Below the pieces are notes generated by a model. It made no database searches, was not told the origin of the DNA, and was given only the letters and a program-made list of their open reading frames with translations. Of a stretch of 64,000 nucleotides of DNA, positions 23,507 through 31,232 are shown in pieces. The stretch is from Sphingobium sp. EP60837. Its GTDB lineage: Bacteria; Pseudomonadota; Alphaproteobacteria; Sphingomonadales; Sphingomonadaceae. The DNA lies in the NCBI RefSeq assembly GCF_001658005.1, contig NZ_CP015987.1, forward strand, positions 434,001-498,000, written 5' to 3'. Both the position numbers and the translations under genes were made by a program. Within the stretch, counting starts at the first letter, position 1, and each line of letters begins with the position of its first letter.

Positions 23507-24748
23507 TTAGATCACCTTCAGCTCTTGCAGCTCAGCAATGCGGGCTTCGTCATAGCCCAACTCGCCCAGCACTTCGGCGGTATGCTCGCCGAGCAGCGGC
23601 GGCGCCCTGCGGATCGTGGCCGGAGACGCTGACATATTAGCCAAAGGGCTGGCGATGAGATCGACCGAGCCCGTCGCGGCCCAGGAATGCGGCGTCGTGA
23701 CACGTAGGCCCCGGTGCTGGACCTGCGGGTCTTCCCAGACTTCAGGCAATTCATTGTAGCGCGCGGCAGGGATGCTGACTTCATCGAACATTGCCTGAAG
23801 TTCTTCCGAAGTGAAGCCACGGCTCCATTCGTTGATGATGTCCATCAACTCCAAGCGGTTCAACTTGCCACGCTTGTAGTTCTCGTCGAAGCGCGGGTCC
23901 TGATACAGTTCAGGTTGGCCCATCAGAACGGTAAGACGGCGCCAATGTTCGTCGCCGCCTGCCGTCAGATACAGCATGCCGTCCTTGGTATGAACCAGAT
24001 CCGCCGGCCCGCCGCCATTGCCGCCATTGCCGAGGCGCGGTGGCGGAACACCGTTGAGCAGATAATCCTGCATGATATGGCTCAGCATCGCCACCGAACT
24101 ATCCAGCAAGGCTATATCGATATGCTGCCCTTCACCGGTGCGGTTACGATGTTGCAGCGCGGCCAGGACAGCGATCGCGGTATTATGGCCAGTGATAAAA
24201 TCAACCAGGCTGGGTCCCGCCTTGAGAGGCCCGGCTCCTGGCTGCCCGTCCGGAATGCCGGTCACCGCCATCATGCCGCCTGTCGCCTGGAAAAGCCCGT
24301 CATAGCCGGGGCGCGCGGCCATCGGTCCAGTCTGGCCGAAACCAGTAACGGAGCAATAGATCAGGCCGGGGTTGACCGCCTTCAGGCTCTCATAATCAAG
24401 CCCGAAACGCTTCAGATCGCCGACCTTGTAATTTTCGATCAGAACATCGGCGGTCCGCACCAGCCTGAGGAGGATTTCCTGGCCCTCGGGCCTGGAATGG
24501 TTAAGTGTGATGGACCGCTTGTTACGGTTTGCCGCCGCGAAGAACCCCCCTTGGCGGAGGCTCATCCCATCCTTACCCTGAACCTCGGCCAGGCCGTACA
24601 CCCGGCCGTCGTCACCGACGCCAGGACGTTCCACCTTGATCACATCGGCGCCCAGGTCGCCCAATATCTGCCCGCCAACAGGGCCAGCTAACACGCGGCT
24701 CATGTCAATAACGCGGATGCCCCCAAGGGCAGCATTTCTAGTGGTCAT
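23507..24748 (-). CDS. CaiB/BaiF-type (class III) CoA-transferase
   Basis: 413-residue class III CoA-transferase that moves CoA between organic acids through an aspartyl-CoA intermediate. The N-terminal GGIRVIDMSRVLAGPVGGQILGD and DVIKVERPG are typical. The Asp of GPSLVDFITG sits where the catalytic Asp is expected (about residue 185). A conserved C-terminal segment LGEHTAEVLGELGY is present. It stands alone between the pseudogene and a 155-base gap, and is a different subgroup from the CoA-transferase at 27727. Donor and acceptor cannot be inferred. Confidence 0.87.
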   Translation of the reverse strand: MTTRNAALGGIRVIDMSRVLAGPVGGQILGDLGADVIKVERPGVGDDGRVYGLAEVQGKDGMSLRQGGFFAAANRNKRSITLNHSRPEGQEILLRLVRTADVLIENYKVGDLKRFGLDYESLKAVNPGLIYCSVTGFGQTGPMAARPGYDGLFQATGGMMAVTGIPDGQPGAGPLKAGPSLVDFITGHNTAIAVLAALQHRNRTGEGQHIDIALLDSSVAMLSHIMQDYLLNGVPPPRLGNGGNGGGPADLVHTKDGMLYLTAGGDEHWRRLTVLMGQPELYQDPRFDENYKRGKLNRLELMDIINEWSRGFTSEELQAMFDEVSIPAARYNELPEVWEDPQVQHRGLRVTTPHSWAATGSVDLIASPLANMSASPATIRRAPPLLGEHTAEVLGELGYDEARIAELQELKVI

Positions 24749-24903: not shown

Positions 24904-26016
24904 TCAGGCGAAAGGCGCCAGCCCGGTCAGGATCAGCCGCACCAGATCCGCCTGCCCCTTCGCCCCCGTCTTTTCATAAACCCGCTTGGAGTAATTTCGC
25001 GCCGTCTCACTCGTCAGGCGCAGTTGCTCGCCCGCACTGACGATGCTCTCCCCTTTGCTCAGCGCGTGGGCCAGCGCCGCCTCGCTCGCCGATAATCCAT
25101 GCAAGGCCGCAAGGGTACCGGTTGCCGCCAGGGCGGGCTCTCGCCGGGGCGTGCGCAATATTCCGATCACCGCGGGCAAAGCGCACGGTTCGCTTAGCGC
25201 TACATCCGACTTGCGCAGCAACAGGTCCAGTTCCCGCGCTTCATCGATACGGATCACACGCGTCACCCCGGGCGCGGCCGACGCCATTTCCGCGCAAGCC
25301 CGGTTGAGCGCATGCGCCACCTCCGGCAGCAATTGCAGCCGCCTCTCCGGGCTAGGCCCCGGCTTGACCGTGAAGGCCAGCATCGCCTCCGCCGCTGGAT
25401 CGGCCGCCATCACCCGCCCGCCCCAATCGAGCGCCAGTTGCGCCACACCCAGCCGCGCCAACGCTCCCTGCGCCATTGCCACCTGTAGCTGCGCCTCGAT
25501 TAGCGCGACCAACGTCCGTAGCGCCGCTGCAAAATGGGGCACGATGCTCGACAGGACGGCCACCGCCGACGCAGAAAAATCCTCCCGTTCCCGCACCAGC
25601 AGGAAATGCGCGTCTGCAACGCCGCCCGCCGCGACACGCAGCCAGCGGCCATAGCGGATATTCATCTCGTTCAACGCTTCGCGCTGCCGCCCCAACTCTT
25701 CAGCATTATCATAGTTCAGCATCTCATCCAGCGCATAGACGCGCCCTGGCCGCAACGAGCCGTAGGGATGCAGCCGCAGCGCCTCCAGCCGCCGAAAATC
25801 CAGCGGCGGCTCCTGCGATGCCCGTGGTGCCGCAACATGGATTACCGTCGGCTCCTGCTCCGGCATGGCATTGGCCAGCGAAACAATCAGGAAGGCGCGC
25901 CGGGCATAGGTTCGCCCGACGAGATTGCGCAGAAAGGCGCCAAAGGGGGGGCTTTCATGGATGCCGTCCACCAGCGGCAGGAACAATTCATTCTGATCGG
26001 CCCAGAGCGATGGCAT
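24904..26016 (-). CDS. LuxR-type helix-turn-helix regulator
   Basis: 370 residues. The N-terminal two thirds are a PAS/GAF-like sensory region without a clear motif. The C-terminal 65 residues (GLSASEAALAHALSKGES through TARNYSKRVYEKTGA) form a LuxR/GerE DNA-binding domain. The ATG at 26016 follows GGGAGAG with 7-base spacing. A 30-residue extension to 26106 would overlap the CitE gene. It is 44 bases downstream of that gene on the same strand, so it is probably the operon's own regulator. No phospho-acceptor domain is seen. Confidence 0.82.
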   Translation of the reverse strand: MPSLWADQNELFLPLVDGIHESPPFGAFLRNLVGRTYARRAFLIVSLANAMPEQEPTVIHVAAPRASQEPPLDFRRLEALRLHPYGSLRPGRVYALDEMLNYDNAEELGRQREALNEMNIRYGRWLRVAAGGVADAHFLLVREREDFSASAVAVLSSIVPHFAAALRTLVALIEAQLQVAMAQGALARLGVAQLALDWGGRVMAADPAAEAMLAFTVKPGPSPERRLQLLPEVAHALNRACAEMASAAPGVTRVIRIDEARELDLLLRKSDVALSEPCALPAVIGILRTPRREPALAATGTLAALHGLSASEAALAHALSKGESIVSAGEQLRLTSETARNYSKRVYEKTGAKGQADLVRLILTGLAPFA

Positions 26017-26060
26017 GTATCCGCTCTCCCATATGGGAGATAAAGGGTCAAGCCATGCTC

Positions 26061-26915
26061 CTAGCAGCGAGCGAGAAGCGCCTGCGCCTTCTTCAAATGC
26101 GGCCAATCGATCATCTTGCCGTCGAGCGTCAGCACACCCGCACCCGGATTGGCGGCGAAGGCATCAACCACCGCCTGCGCATGCGCAATCTCCTCCGGCG
26201 CGGGCGTAAAGGCGGCGTTGATTACCTGCACCTGATCGGGATGCACCGCCATCATACCCAGAAAGCCGTCGCGCGCCCCCCGCGCCGCATAGGCGGCCAG
26301 GCCCTCCAGATCGCGGATCGCCGGATAGACCGTCTCGATCGGCGTCACCTCCGCAGCGGCCGCCGCAAACAGAGTGAGCGCCCGCGCTATTTCATAAGGC
26401 GGGGTATAGCCGCCGTCCGCCTGACGGGCGGTCAACGCTCCCACCGCCGCAGGCAAATCTTCCGCGCCCCATGTAAGCCCCGCGAGCCGCTCGCGGACCT
26501 CCACATATTCACCGAGGCGGAACAGCGCCTTGGGCGTTTCCGTCGCAATCGGCAGGATCCGCGCCTGCGCATCGCCCCTCATCCGCAGCCGCTCGTCCAG
26601 GTCTGCGATCGAGGCCGCGCCTTCAGCCTTGGGCAGCATGATCCCGGCGGGGCGCGCTTCAACGATCGCGTCCAGATCCGCATCGGTCAGCCCGCCATCA
26701 AGCGGGTTCACCCGGACGAACAGCATCGCTTGGCTACCCGCCGCTTCTGTCAGGAACGCCGAAACCTCCTTGCGCGCCCGCGATTTCGCATCGATCGCAA
26801 CGGAATCCTCCAGGTCCAGGATCAAGGCATCAGCGCCGCTGCCCAGCGCCTTACGCATCCGTTCCGGCCGGTCGCCAGGCACGAACAACAAGGAACGCAG
26901 GCGTAGTCCGCTCAT
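26061..26915 (-). CDS. CitE-family CoA lyase, probable (S)-citramalyl-CoA/malyl-CoA lyase
   Basis: 284-residue HpcH/HpaI-CitE TIM-barrel lyase that likely splits citramalyl-CoA into pyruvate and acetyl-CoA (or acts on malyl/beta-methylmalyl-CoA). Family marks in order: RSLLFVPGDRPERMRKALG at the N terminus, the metal-binding DLEDSV, RVNPLDGG, then MLPKAEG. The length fits stand-alone citramalyl-CoA lyases better than the longer Chloroflexus Mcl. It starts inside the end of the meh gene (ATGA overlap), which ties it to the mesaconyl-CoA enzymes encoded upstream. Confidence 0.84.
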   Translation of the reverse strand: MSGLRLRSLLFVPGDRPERMRKALGSGADALILDLEDSVAIDAKSRARKEVSAFLTEAAGSQAMLFVRVNPLDGGLTDADLDAIVEARPAGIMLPKAEGAASIADLDERLRMRGDAQARILPIATETPKALFRLGEYVEVRERLAGLTWGAEDLPAAVGALTARQADGGYTPPYEIARALTLFAAAAAEVTPIETVYPAIRDLEGLAAYAARGARDGFLGMMAVHPDQVQVINAAFTPAPEEIAHAQAVVDAFAANPGAGVLTLDGKMIDWPHLKKAQALLARC

Positions 26916-27730
26916 TGATATGCCACCCTTGCAGTCATAGCTGTCGCCCCGTCGCAGCGAACAGCCCGTACCTCGCCCTCTCCGCGCTGCAACCGGATCG
27001 GCTGCCCGAGGAACAGCGGCGACTGAGCCCGGAAACTGAAGCGCGCTAATCTGCCCTCGAGCTCCGCGAAAGCTGCAAGTTTTGCAGCGGTGAACGGCCC
27101 ATGGACGACCAGCGCCGGATAGCCCTCTGCCTCTTGTGCATAGGGCAGGTCATAATGGATGCGATGGCTGTTAAAGGTGACCGCGGAAAAGCGGAACAGA
27201 TTGACGGGACCGGGCTCCCATAGCTCCCCTTCGACAGGCCCACCCCCTGGCACCGGCATTGGCGCGGGCGAACCCATGTCCCGATAGACATAGGTTTGAC
27301 GCTCCCGCACGCGCACGTCGCCATCCTGGCTGATCGCCCGATCGACATCGACGAAGATCAGGTCACCCGACTGCCCGCTCTTGTGCGTGACGCTCGCGAC
27401 GCTGCTCAGCATCTCCGCCTCACGCCCGAGGAGCAGCGGCGCCTCGAAACTGATGTCTGCGGCGGCGAACATGCGGCGCGGCAGGCTGACCGCAGGCAGG
27501 AAGCCGCCTCTCCGGGGGTGCCCATCCTCGCCTATGTCGCCATCTTCCGGTTGCGGCAGGAAAAAGGCCCAATGAGCAAGCGGCGGCAGGACCTGCTCCA
27601 CCTTCGGGTCGGAGCCGACCGCCAGCGCATAACGACGCAGGCTCTCATGCTCCAATACCTCTGCGCGCGTCTCGCTACGCCCGACGCTGCCCTTCCACTC
27701 CTCCAACGCCGCCGGATCCAGATCGCTCAT
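26912..27730 (-). CDS. meh: Mesaconyl-C4-CoA hydratase-like protein (MaoC/HTD2 hot-dog fold)
   Basis: 272 residues with two hot-dog domains, the form of 3-methylfumaryl-CoA (mesaconyl-C4-CoA) hydratase. An N-terminal FAS1-like dehydratase half includes PPLAHWAFFLPQ and ISFEAPLLLGREAE. The C-terminal half has FNSHRIHYDLPYA and VVHGPF, with candidate catalytic His and Asp. The predicted reaction is water addition to mesaconyl-C4-CoA giving (S)-citramalyl-CoA. It overlaps both the CoA-transferase upstream and the lyase downstream by ATGA. An itaconyl-CoA hydratase role is the main alternative. Confidence 0.8.
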   Translation of the reverse strand: MSDLDPAALEEWKGSVGRSETRAEVLEHESLRRYALAVGSDPKVEQVLPPLAHWAFFLPQPEDGDIGEDGHPRRGGFLPAVSLPRRMFAAADISFEAPLLLGREAEMLSSVASVTHKSGQSGDLIFVDVDRAISQDGDVRVRERQTYVYRDMGSPAPMPVPGGGPVEGELWEPGPVNLFRFSAVTFNSHRIHYDLPYAQEAEGYPALVVHGPFTAAKLAAFAELEGRLARFSFRAQSPLFLGQPIRLQRGEGEVRAVRCDGATAMTARVAYQ

Positions 27731-28929
27731 GCCACGATCCCCGCATCATGCAGCTTGCCGATCTCGCCGCTCGACAGGCCCAGAAGATCCGACAGCACCT
27801 CATCGCTATGCTGGCCGATGCGCGGCGATGCGAACGGCTCGCCCAGATCCTCGCCGGGAATGCGCGCTGCCGCCCGCGGCGTTGGATAGCTATCCCCGCC
27901 CCCATGGGTCGCCTCGCCATAAATGGGATTGTCCGCAAACAAACGAGGCTCTCGCTCCAGCGCCTCGGCGAGCGTGCGATAGATCGACCAGGTCACGCCC
28001 GTCGCTTCGAACAGTTCCGCGCATTTCGCCAGAGGCCGCTCGGCAATCGCGCTGGCCACCAAAGCGTCTACCTCCGTGCGGTGGACAAAACGTGTACCCT
28101 CATCGGCGGCGAAATCAACGCCCAAGCGCGCCTCCAGATCGGCAATCGCTTCTCCCAGGCCCAGCGCTTTGATTAGCCCTGTCCACTGGCGCGGAGTGAT
28201 CGCGACCAGCATCACCCGCTCGCCATCCGCCGTTGCGAAGTCGCGACCGAACGCGCCGAACAGATTATTGCCGCTCCTCGGCCGGTCCTGCCCGCTCAGC
28301 GTCACCTCGGCGACATTGCCCAGATTGCCCATCGTCGCCGCTGCCAGATCGGAAAGCGCCAGTCGCACCTCACGCCCCTTGCCGCTCGCTTGCCGCTCCC
28401 GCTCCGCCGCCAGCAGCGCAAAGGCACCATAGGCCCCCGCGAGCAGATCCCACGCGGGCAGCACATGATTGACAGGACGCGGATCATCTGGATGCCCGGT
28501 TAGATAAGGCATCCCGACGCTGGCATTCACCGTATAATCGACCGCCGGCGTGCCATCGGCCCAGCCCATCACCCGCAGGCAGACCAGATCGACCCGCAGC
28601 GCGGACAGCTTTTCATAGGACAGGAACCCCTGCACCGGGAAATTGGTGACGAACAATCCGTCGCCGCTGGTCGCCACCCGCTGCGCCAACTCCCGTCCTT
28701 CGGGTCGGCCAAGATCAATCGCCAGTGATTTCTTGCCCTTGTTCAACCCCTCCCAATAAAGGCTCTGCGCCTTGGGACCGATCGGCCAGCGCGCGCTGTC
28801 GGGGCCCCCGCCGATCTGGTCGAAACGGATCACGGTCGCGCCCATCTGCGCCAGATGCAGCCCGCAGGACGGCCCGGCGATAAAAGCCGCGCCTTCGACA
28901 ACCGTCAGTCCTTTGAGCAATCCATACAT
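27727..28929 (-). CDS. mct: Mesaconyl-CoA C1-C4 CoA-transferase-like protein (2-methylfumaryl-CoA isomerase)
   Basis: 400-residue class III CoA-transferase. From memory it resembles Chloroflexus Mct, the intramolecular mesaconyl-C1-CoA to mesaconyl-C4-CoA transferase, across the whole length rather than general CaiB proteins. Shared-looking segments are GLTVVEGAAFIAGP, the DYTVNASVG loop, NHVLPAWDLLAGAYG with the Asp at the catalytic position, and FGAFGRDF. The start ATG overlaps the fbiC stop by one base (TGATG), and the longer frame to 29034 runs into fbiC. It overlaps the meh gene at its end. No alignment was run. Confidence 0.78.
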   Translation of the reverse strand: MYGLLKGLTVVEGAAFIAGPSCGLHLAQMGATVIRFDQIGGGPDSARWPIGPKAQSLYWEGLNKGKKSLAIDLGRPEGRELAQRVATSGDGLFVTNFPVQGFLSYEKLSALRVDLVCLRVMGWADGTPAVDYTVNASVGMPYLTGHPDDPRPVNHVLPAWDLLAGAYGAFALLAAERERQASGKGREVRLALSDLAAATMGNLGNVAEVTLSGQDRPRSGNNLFGAFGRDFATADGERVMLVAITPRQWTGLIKALGLGEAIADLEARLGVDFAADEGTRFVHRTEVDALVASAIAERPLAKCAELFEATGVTWSIYRTLAEALEREPRLFADNPIYGEATHGGGDSYPTPRAAARIPGEDLGEPFASPRIGQHSDEVLSDLLGLSSGEIGKLHDAGIVA

Positions 28930-31232
28930 CAGGCCGCGACCTCCTGTTCGACCGATCCGTAAAGCGTGGTCCGCTGCCGGGCGTATCGGCCCGCTGTTTC
29001 GGCCGTGCGGTGCATCCGCTCCACATCGAAACACTGCCCATGCGCTCCGCCCGCTGCGCGCGTGATGGATTCGTCCATCAGCACTCCGCCGAGGTCATTG
29101 ACCCCCGCGCCCAGCGCCGCGATCACGCCCTGCTCGCCCAGCTTCACCCAGCTCGCCTGGATGTTGCCGATCGCGCCATGCAGCGCGATACGCGCCACTG
29201 CCTGCATCAGCAGCGCTTCGCGGAAGCTCGGGCCCGACCGCGCCTTGCCCTTGCGCCACATCGGCGCTTCCATATGCACGAAGGGCAGCGGCACAAACTC
29301 AGTAAAGCCGCCCGTCTCCTCCTGCAGGCCGCGCACGACGTTCAAGTGCCGTGCCCAGTGGCGATACTCATCGACATGGCCAAACATAATCGTCGCCGTG
29401 CTTTTCAGGCCAACGCGATGCGCCGCCCGCATCACCGCCACCCATTCATCCGTCGAAACCTTGTCGGGGCAGATGATGGCCCGCACTTCCTCATGCAGCA
29501 CTTCGGCCGCCGTCCCTGGCAGCGTCGAAAGCCCCGCCTCCTTCAGCATCGCCAGATAGGGTTCCAACTCCATGCCAAGGGTGGAGGCGCCATGCGCGAT
29601 CTCCAGCGGGGAAAAGGCGTGGACATGGATCCCCGGCGCGGCATCCCGCACCGTCCGGACGATCGACAGATAGGTATGCCCATCATAGTCCGGATGAATG
29701 CCGCCCTGCAGGCAGACTTCGGTCGCGCCACGCGCATGAGCCTCAGCCGCCCTGCGTCCCACCTCTTCCAGGTCCAGCTTATAGGCAGGGCCGCGCAAAG
29801 CCTTCGCCGTCCCCTTGGAAAAGGCGCAGAAGCCGCAGCGATAGCTGCAGATATTCGTGTAGTTGATGTTGCGGTTGATCACATAAGTAATCGCGTCACC
29901 CACCGCCTCATGCCGCAGCGTATCCGCCGCTTCCATCACCCGCCCGGCATCCGGCCCGGCGGCTTCGAACAGCGTGATAATCTCGCTATCGTCCAGCCCT
30001 TCACCCGCCTTGGCGATAATCTCGTCGATCCGTCCGCCAATCAGCGTCCGTCCCACCAGAGGCAGCACCGGCGGCGCTTCTCCCGCGCCCGCGCGCCAGC
30101 GCTCGACGATCGGCAGACCGCGCGCATCCACCGCTCGCCGTACCTTTAGCGCAACTTCGGGCTCCAGCCACCGCTCCGGCTCCTTTGCATAGGCAGGCCC
30201 TACCGCCAGCCGCTCCGTCAGCACCCGTCCCGCCGCCGCTGTCGCAGCCGCCAGCGCCATCAGATGCGGCCAGGGCGCTTCGGGGTTCACATGGTCGGGC
30301 GTCACTGGCGAGACGCCGCCCCAGTCATTCACCCCCGCACGCATCAGCGCAGCCAAACCATCCGGCTGCAGATTGGGCGGCGCCTGGATCGTCATTTCCG
30401 GCCCCAGGATCAATCGCGCCGCCGCGATGGTCCACAGATGCTCCTCCAGCGGCGGTTCTGCATGATCCGCCATGCGCGTGTCCGGTTTGGCCCGGAAATT
30501 TTGGACGATCACTTCCTGCACATGCCCATGCCGCGCATGTGCATCGCGAATCGCCAGCAGCGCCTCGATGCGCTCCATCCGCGTCTCGCCGATGCCGATC
30601 AGCAAACCGGTGGTGAAGGGCACCCGCGCCCGCCCCGCTGCCTCGATCGCCTCCAGCCGCACCGCAGGAACCTTGTCCGGCGATCCATGATGCGGCCCCC
30701 CTTTTGCGCACAGCCGATCGGACGTGCTTTCCAGCATCAGGCCCATCGACGCGGCCACTGGGCGCAGCATCGCCAGATCGGCGTCCCCCATGATGCCGGG
30801 GTTCAGGTGGGGCAACAGGTTCGTTTCCACCAGTACCGCCGCCGCCGCCTCCCGCAAATAGCGCAGCGTCGAGCCATGCCCCAACACCTCCAGCGCCGTC
30901 CGCGCCACGGCATAGCGATCCTCCGGCCGGTCCCCGAGCGTAAATAGCGCCTCTCGGCATCCCGCCGCCTCACCCGCCCGGGCAATCTTCAGCACTTCGT
31001 CGATCGACAGATAGGGCGATCCGGCATTGCGCGGCGCTTTGGCGAAGGTGCAATAATGGCAAACGTCGCGACATAGGTGAGTCAGGGGAATGAAGACCTT
31101 GCGCGAATAGGTGACGGTCGCGCCAAATGACGCCAGCGTCATCGCCTCGGCCTGGTCAAGCAGCGCGCCGAGCGGTTCACGCCCAAGCGCTTTTGCCCAT
31201 GACACGGCCGAATCCACGTCCTCGATCCTCAT
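28929..31232 (-). CDS. fbiC: FO synthase, fused CofG-CofH radical SAM protein
   Basis: 767 residues that make FO (7,8-didemethyl-8-hydroxy-5-deazariboflavin), the chromophore core of F420 and of some photolyases. The N-terminal CofG half has CRDVCHYC (Cys 54, 58, 61) and the C-terminal CofH half has CSYRCGFC near residue 460. These are two CxxxCxxC clusters for separate [4Fe-4S]/SAM sites. The length equals that of actinobacterial FbiC. The ATG follows GAGGCGAGGA. It is the first gene of the mct-meh-citE operon. No other F420 biosynthesis gene or photolyase lies in this window. Confidence 0.92.
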   Translation of the reverse strand: MRIEDVDSAVSWAKALGREPLGALLDQAEAMTLASFGATVTYSRKVFIPLTHLCRDVCHYCTFAKAPRNAGSPYLSIDEVLKIARAGEAAGCREALFTLGDRPEDRYAVARTALEVLGHGSTLRYLREAAAAVLVETNLLPHLNPGIMGDADLAMLRPVAASMGLMLESTSDRLCAKGGPHHGSPDKVPAVRLEAIEAAGRARVPFTTGLLIGIGETRMERIEALLAIRDAHARHGHVQEVIVQNFRAKPDTRMADHAEPPLEEHLWTIAAARLILGPEMTIQAPPNLQPDGLAALMRAGVNDWGGVSPVTPDHVNPEAPWPHLMALAAATAAAGRVLTERLAVGPAYAKEPERWLEPEVALKVRRAVDARGLPIVERWRAGAGEAPPVLPLVGRTLIGGRIDEIIAKAGEGLDDSEIITLFEAAGPDAGRVMEAADTLRHEAVGDAITYVINRNINYTNICSYRCGFCAFSKGTAKALRGPAYKLDLEEVGRRAAEAHARGATEVCLQGGIHPDYDGHTYLSIVRTVRDAAPGIHVHAFSPLEIAHGASTLGMELEPYLAMLKEAGLSTLPGTAAEVLHEEVRAIICPDKVSTDEWVAVMRAAHRVGLKSTATIMFGHVDEYRHWARHLNVVRGLQEETGGFTEFVPLPFVHMEAPMWRKGKARSGPSFREALLMQAVARIALHGAIGNIQASWVKLGEQGVIAALGAGVNDLGGVLMDESITRAAGGAHGQCFDVERMHRTAETAGRYARQRTTLYGSVEQEVAA

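Follow-up and report, generated by a model that had tools for sequence, protein, structure and literature searches.

Introduction

In the 3-hydroxypropionate bicycle of Chloroflexus, a branch carried by the enzymes Mct, Meh and Mcl turns mesaconyl-C1-CoA into mesaconyl-C4-CoA, then (S)-citramalyl-CoA, and finally pyruvate and acetyl-CoA. For Mct, a catalytic Asp165 and Arg47 have been described, together with an Arg314 supplied by the second subunit (PMC9196870; this and the other papers are cited here from excerpts of their text). Another intramolecular CoA-transferase belongs to family I (PMC11659651), and enzymes of this kind are therefore not confined to mesaconyl-CoA. Mesaconyl-C1-CoA may also arise by oxidation of (2S)-methylsuccinyl-CoA, catalyzed by the dehydrogenase Mcd, whose solved form 6es9 is marked by an N-terminal extension of ~170 residues, an arginine cluster, a methyl pocket formed by Ala285 and Phe287, and Glu535 (PMC5798300). 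The excerpted text of a 2025 paper on methylsuccinate names only a C4-type dehydrogenase and the ethylmalonyl-CoA enzyme (PMC12290011), and the purpose of the deazaflavin cofactor F420 in Proteobacteria is given as an unanswered question in the excerpted part of a 2021 review (PMC8498797). Here we describe an operon, fbiC-mct-meh-citE, that joins a gene of F420 synthesis to homologs of the mesaconyl-CoA enzymes in Sphingobium sp. EP60837. It lies in a stretch of 64,000 nucleotides (contig NZ_CP015987.1, positions 434,001 to 498,000; hereafter the window, whose numbering is used throughout), which is located on the 1.13-Mb second replicon (C2) of a genome whose chromosome is C1.

On balance, the gene content and its distribution among relatives make it somewhat more likely than not that this operon acts as an accessory of the second replicon, completing two catabolic clusters of the chromosome and serving the disposal of methylsuccinyl-CoA. 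Such a route appears to fit these genes better than does the 3-hydroxypropionate bicycle.

Results

The operon is read from the minus strand and begins with fbiC (28929-31232; 767 aa), encoding a bifunctional FO synthase. This is followed by a gene for an Mct-like CoA-transferase (27727-28929; ATG start, 400 aa), one for a Meh-like mesaconyl-C4-CoA hydratase of the MaoC/hot-dog type (26912-27730; 272 aa) and one for a CitE-like acyl-CoA lyase, a candidate (S)-citramalyl-CoA lyase (26061-26915; 284 aa), with luxR coming after. The frames of these first four genes overlap by 1, 4 and 4 bases, exactly as a first-pass annotation of the five minus-strand genes had reported; its title called the modules fused, which was loose wording for genes that overlap without any fusion. 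The third-position GC content (GC3) is 0.73-0.77 in all five genes from fbiC to luxR, so base composition shows no sign of recent foreign insertion. Relatives share the flanks, with rpoN and an ABC-transporter gene at one end and luxR-caiB at the other. Judged from sequence, the arrangement is more than chance, because it comprises four long frames with family matches and recurs between the same flanks in relatives.

The best solved relatives of the Mct-like protein are two Mct chains, with 396 bits (7xkg, 49.4% identity, which we take to be the Mct of Roseiflexus castenholzii) and 390 bits, the next best structure scoring 93; one of the two, 8apq, carries the name 2-methylfumaryl-CoA isomerase. 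The numbering of 7xkg fits the Asp165, Arg47 and Arg314 of PMC9196870. Both the catalytic aspartate (Asp161, equivalent to Asp165) and Arg47 are kept in the window protein, as they are in 99/99 aligned rows. The earlier assignment to Mct specifically, rather than to generic CaiB, is thus supported, the nearest solved relatives being Mct and not Frc, SUGCT or CaiB. Because the score on the Mct equivalog TIGR04253 (413.3 bits) lies below the cut-off of 725, we call the protein Mct-like. It is the only mct match in its own genome (E<=1e-60), and transfer of CoA from mesaconyl-C1-CoA to give mesaconyl-C4-CoA is its likely reaction.

For the Meh-like protein, the closest solved structures are 8khg and 8huc (177 bits; next 29), of which 8khg is named itaconyl-CoA hydratase, an enzyme that hydrates mesaconyl-C4-CoA as well (PMC12290011). 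Pfam gave only 24.4 bits on PF13452 and NCBIfam no match, and no second meh match occurs in the genome (E<=1e-30). The CitE-like protein matches PF03328 (114 bits) and scores best on NF038242, RipC_Ccl (169.8 bits, below the cut-off of 375); its scores against solved lyases are close to one another (3qll 121, 8khl 112, 5vxc 110, 6aq4 108 and 5ugr 104 bits) and do not set the Ccl type apart from those of Mcl, CLYBL and Rv2498c. Such scores place it in the broad group of citramalyl-, malyl- and 3-hydroxy-3-methylglutaryl-CoA (HMG)-type lyases and leave it ambiguous there, and both the Meh and the citramalyl-CoA lyase assignments are family-level ones. At that level, the proposed sequence of reactions from mesaconyl-C1-CoA through the C4 ester and citramalyl-CoA to pyruvate plus acetyl-CoA is supported. 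The trio also occurs in a different order, mct-citE-meh, in another genome (G019; L215, 926-3848), in which no fbiC was found.

FbiC exceeds the equivalog cut-off of NF006687 (1119.5 bits versus 1018) and those of its two domain models, TIGR03550 (494 versus 213) and TIGR03551 (546 versus 374), CofG and CofH being joined in one protein. It is the sole fbiC match in the genome (E<=1e-3). CofC, CofD and CofE, all over cut-off, are encoded on C1 at ~1.517 Mb, and NpdG is over cut-off as well. A deazaflavin-dependent redox step, as had been surmised earlier, was not found among the mct-meh-citE trio.

The strongest partner of Mct is an Mcd homolog. We surveyed 94 genomes of the same genus, which are related to each other, with thresholds of E<=1e-140 for Mcd and E<=1e-60 for Mct. 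Mcd was present in 34/94 and Mct in 35/94, and every genome bearing Mcd also bore Mct (34/34), a correlation that points to methylsuccinyl-CoA oxidation. The two genes lie less than 12 kb apart in 32 of the 34, the exceptions being the present genome, where they are on two replicons, and G011, where they are on two contigs of a draft. The distance count used all Mct rows (42) and Mcd rows (39) and 55 of the 62 fbiC rows; the seven short fbiC fragments left out include the only ones of G031, which has no Mct. Neighboring genes were taken from a simple open reading frame (ORF) caller, which misplaced some starts and overlooked some genes. The chromosomal Mcd of strain EP60837 (560 aa) aligns over residues 24-557 with Mcd 6es9 of P. 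denitrificans at 708 bits, a homolog at another locus (L171) reaching 614 bits. It retains Arg252, Arg376 and Arg421, Ala285, Phe287, Glu380 and Glu535, and thus has the N-terminal extension, three-arginine cluster, methyl pocket and catalytic glutamate of a (2S)-methylsuccinyl-CoA dehydrogenase. Sphingomonad mct genes are often found beside meh and genes for acyl-CoA dehydrogenases (ACADs), thiolases and a dehydrogenase of 545-560 residues, the Mcd homolog. Of 80 named Mct loci, a selection from a larger set in which many are short, 21 contain both Mcd (>450 bits) and Meh. The ethylmalonyl-CoA pathway was considered as a source of methylsuccinyl-CoA in this genome and rejected, because no crotonyl-CoA carboxylase/reductase (Ccr) exceeds the cut-off there (best match 57.7 bits versus 378.55). 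Ccr is over cut-off in 0/19 genomes of the genus, this one included, and in 6/12 others of the order.

Mcd opens the first of two conserved chromosomal clusters that contain gaps. Cluster I (C1, ~26.6-47 kb) runs from mcd through genes for an enoyl-CoA hydratase, a short-chain dehydrogenase/reductase (SDR), a CaiB-type transferase, a cytochrome c, a thiolase and an ACAD to a slot of 32 bases. After the slot come an oxidoreductase, two ACADs, a P450, an M20 peptidase, an aldehyde dehydrogenase (ALDH), a major facilitator superfamily (MFS) transporter and a TonB receptor. The SDR, cytochrome c, thiolase, ALDH, MFS and TonB proteins were named by reading their sequences, and the oxidoreductase through its homolog in L164. 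The P450 is nearest to P450cam (242 bits), a likeness that does not fix its substrate. In the relatives compared (L034/L194, L046, L164, L165 and L167), the 32-base slot holds mct-meh. Cluster II (C1, ~338-356 kb) consists of a thiolase gene and npdG, a gap of 61 bases, and then tetR, APH, SDR, ACAD, MFS, ligase, pyrroloquinoline quinone (PQQ) dehydrogenase, FadB and thiolase genes; here the first thiolase, tetR, MFS, ligase and FadB were named by reading the sequences and the others by search. The gap between npdG and tetR holds fbiC in four genomes (G015, G028, G067 and G092), and fbiC adjoins npdG in G026 too. The genes absent from the two slots are those of the window operon, which suggests that the operon would supply in trans the steps missing from both clusters.

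As possible F420 users, luciferase-like monooxygenase (LLM) proteins were considered, of which the genome has six PF00296 matches, one of them beside cluster II. The latter, an LLM-class protein at the end of that cluster (L220, 1273-2280), may use F420 or FMN and is accompanied by a CaiB-like ORF. LLM-class proteins also adjoin another type of fbiC (~69% identical) at L173 (11872-12879) and L176 (11800-12849); the one in L173 scores best on models of F420-dependent oxidoreductases, below cut-off.

A search of gene neighborhoods showed that direct adjacency of fbiC and mct, for which the first-pass annotation had sought parallels, is found among the 94 genomes only in strain EP60837, while in 8 further genomes of the genus the two are linked within 20 kb, mct lying 15-16 kb from fbiC of the 55-61% type. 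Where the best Mct of a genome shares 60-64% identity with that of the window, this type is present in 15/17 cases (in G016 by fragments; G019 has no fbiC). The fullest linkage is seen in Sphingomonas jatrophae, where one strand of 17.6 kb (L075) carries fbiC, npdG, P450, two ACAD genes, oxidoreductase, mct and meh. It continues with ACAD, thiolase, cytochrome c, CaiB, SDR, enoyl-CoA hydratase and Mcd (74% identical), this last detected only by tblastn. In open-access PubMed Central, we found no paper combining F420 with mesaconyl-CoA or with terms for sphingomonad catabolism, no Sphingobium among the matches listed for methylsuccinyl-CoA dehydrogenase or mesaconyl-CoA, and, judging mostly from search results without full texts, no description of fbiC-mct linkage.

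Relatives of the replicon carry shorter versions of the operon. On a plasmid of Sphingobium sp. TomTYG65 the order is fbiC-meh-citE-luxR-caiB; TomTYG64, TomMM7A, G009, G022 and G070 have fbiC-citE-luxR-caiB; and G010 has fbiC-luxR with the C-terminus of citE left behind fbiC. The start of meh in TomTYG65, ATGTATGG, resembles that of mct, sharing 8 bases with it versus 3 with the window meh. A protein start of MY is found in 79/99 Mct rows and 0/27 Meh rows, the window's included, under a trimming rule that favored MY starts. The junction in G070 resembles the end of meh, although the match is short. With the opening bases of mct at the head of the TomTYG65 meh, and the end of citE still present in G010, these junctions suggest that a four-gene operon was ancestral to the replicon lineage and that relatives lost genes; it seems less likely that fbiC-citE came first and mct-meh were inserted later. 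G009, G010 and G022 lack both Mct and Mcd, and in G009 and G022 a less closely related Meh-like protein is matched at another place (47-48%). G070 carries a different Mcd, next to an mct of its own.

The luxR gene does stand 3′ of citE, as first proposed. The TTG start of the ORF 24904-26106 is unlikely, and ATG 26016 is the most likely start because it corresponds to the annotated start of the homolog in TomTYG65. Read from there (24904-26016, minus strand; 370 aa, 94% identical to that homolog), luxR begins 44 bases after citE, without overlap. The match to the LuxR helix-turn-helix is weak (PF00196, E 0.0068, 16.5 bits, cut-off 23.5). Just upstream lies a perfect 14-base palindrome, CTCCCATATGGGAG (26026-26039), a candidate operator with an exact copy in the 7/7 related fbiC-luxR loci examined as well as in the window. 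The genome has this exact sequence nowhere else, and autoregulation of luxR would be the simplest guess. Three sites with one mismatch were inspected and revealed no clear regulon. One such copy (L223, 8204-8217; C2:186203 of this genome) follows an ORF that overlaps a PF00296 match, 16 bases past its 3′ end, and precedes a TetR-like ORF by ~120 bases. Beyond luxR, a minus-strand gene for a CaiB-type CoA-transferase (23507-24748), succinate--glutarate-like, matches PF02515 (394 bits) and NF052585 (379 bits, below the cut-off of 750). It occupies the same place after luxR in L159, L161, L162 and L207-L209.

Discussion

By supplying FbiC together with the enzymes that would follow Mcd, the window operon could serve both chromosomal clusters at once. 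FbiC would make FO, which chromosomal CofC, CofD and CofE would convert to F420, and NpdG would keep the cofactor reduced. A methyl-branched, perhaps terpenoid-like compound, passing through beta-oxidation, may end as (2S)-methylsuccinyl-CoA, which the Mcd of the P450 cluster would oxidize to mesaconyl-C1-CoA. If the remaining steps run in the degradative direction, the window Mct would shift CoA to the C4 carboxyl, Meh would hydrate mesaconyl-C4-CoA to (S)-citramalyl-CoA, and CitE would cleave the latter to acetyl-CoA and pyruvate. More broadly, and with doubt slightly outweighing belief, we propose that sphingomonads run an undescribed F420-linked pathway, built on a P450 and ACADs, by which a compound with a methyl branch, possibly a terpenoid, is degraded; it would end in Mcd-Mct-Meh-CitE and use F420H2 in an upstream reduction. 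The lineage of strain EP60837 would then have lost the chromosomal fbiC and the Mct-Meh steps, with a single operon of the second replicon assuming the two tasks.

Several points weigh against these proposals. The Roseiflexus Arg314 is replaced by Gly311 in the window protein (Gly in 95/99 rows, Arg in 0/99), and substrate preference may therefore differ. The window Mct is 60-64% identical to the Mct of the P450 clusters and belongs to a separate clade, well supported in a quick tree with SH-aLRT values only. CitE-type proteins occur in 92/94 genomes of the genus (E<=1e-15), so that CitE is not specific to the pathway. Among the 80 named Mct loci, many of them short, only 39 have Mcd, 32 Meh and 1 (L075) fbiC in view. 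No clear F420-dependent enzyme was seen among the scanned proteins of the chromosomal clusters, and no listed model gave the LLM protein next to cluster II a score above its cut-off, so that this protein is ambiguous by model. Finally, 12/35 Mct-bearing genomes lack fbiC, which makes F420 a feature of one pathway version and not of the Mcd-Mct module as such.

Might the operon instead degrade free C5 dicarboxylates (mesaconate, itaconate or methylsuccinate), the CaiB-type transferase activating them, Mct-Meh-CitE finishing the task and fbiC being a bystander in a shared transcript? The kinship of Meh to itaconyl-CoA hydratase, the best score of CitE on RipC_Ccl and the caiB gene after luxR are all in keeping with this, and pseudomonads use a five-gene itaconate/methylsuccinate cluster (PMC12290011). 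However, a transferase that forms C4 esters would presumably not need Mct, relatives without mct and meh at this locus still have caiB together with luxR, and Mct tracks Mcd, which makes such a role unlikely. A partial 3-hydroxypropionate bicycle, in which mesaconyl-C1-CoA would come from propionyl-CoA and glyoxylate via beta-methylmalyl-CoA, was among the first suggestions for this locus. The trio reactions do equal those of the Chloroflexus branch, and heterotrophic 'Ca. Kentron' is predicted to have most bicycle enzymes without two key ones (PMC6593406, in excerpt). Nevertheless, this genome has Mcd, which offers another origin for mesaconyl-C1-CoA and was accompanied by Mct wherever it was found, and we consider the bicycle a very improbable explanation.

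The linkage of fbiC to mct-meh-citE might also lack functional meaning, these genes being chance neighbors in one transcription unit that is now eroding. Relatives of the same lineage do keep fbiC-luxR without mct, without mct and meh, or without these and most of citE. On the other hand, the same functions are co-clustered in other ways, in the 8 further genomes, where less than 20 kb separates mct from a different fbiC type, and all in one run in S. jatrophae, and G009, G010 and G022, which have no mct anywhere, are also without Mcd; chance linkage thus seems an improbable account.

Disposal of methylsuccinyl-CoA by an accessory operon would suggest a natural use for Mct beyond the Chloroflexus bicycle, as the link between methylsuccinyl-CoA oxidation of the C1 type and the citramalyl-CoA route. 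It would also hint at why such bacteria make F420: a single system of acyl-CoA catabolism has the genes for this cofactor linked to it in two distinct arrangements, which provides a concrete hypothesis for its purpose.

With the Mct-Meh-Mcl branch of Chloroflexus and Roseiflexus, the present system shares the Mct family, the catalytic aspartate and Arg47, and the predicted order of reactions. It differs in having glycine for Arg314, in a CitE that scores best on the RipC/Ccl model (below cut-off) and not on that of Mcl, and in the linkage of mct to Mcd and F420 genes in related genomes. The pseudomonad cluster (Ict, Ich, Ccl, Mcd-C4 and Msi; PMC12290011) likewise handles methylsuccinate via mesaconyl-C4-CoA and (S)-citramalyl-CoA, with a hydratase and a lyase of related families. 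Because its dehydrogenase takes the C4 ester as substrate, Mct is not needed, whereas the Mcd homolog described here belongs to the (2S)-C1 type, for which Mct would be required before the C4 ester is reached; the excerpted account includes no F420 gene among the five described. The ethylmalonyl-CoA pathway shares the (2S)-methylsuccinyl-CoA dehydrogenase type of Mcd, but in strain EP60837 there is no Ccr over cut-off and the product appears to enter Mct-Meh rather than Mch-Mcl. As in Proteobacterial F420 biosynthesis generally (PMC8498797), FbiC, CofC, CofD, CofE and Fno/NpdG are all represented here, whereas fbiC itself resides within an acyl-CoA operon, apart from cofC, cofD and cofE.

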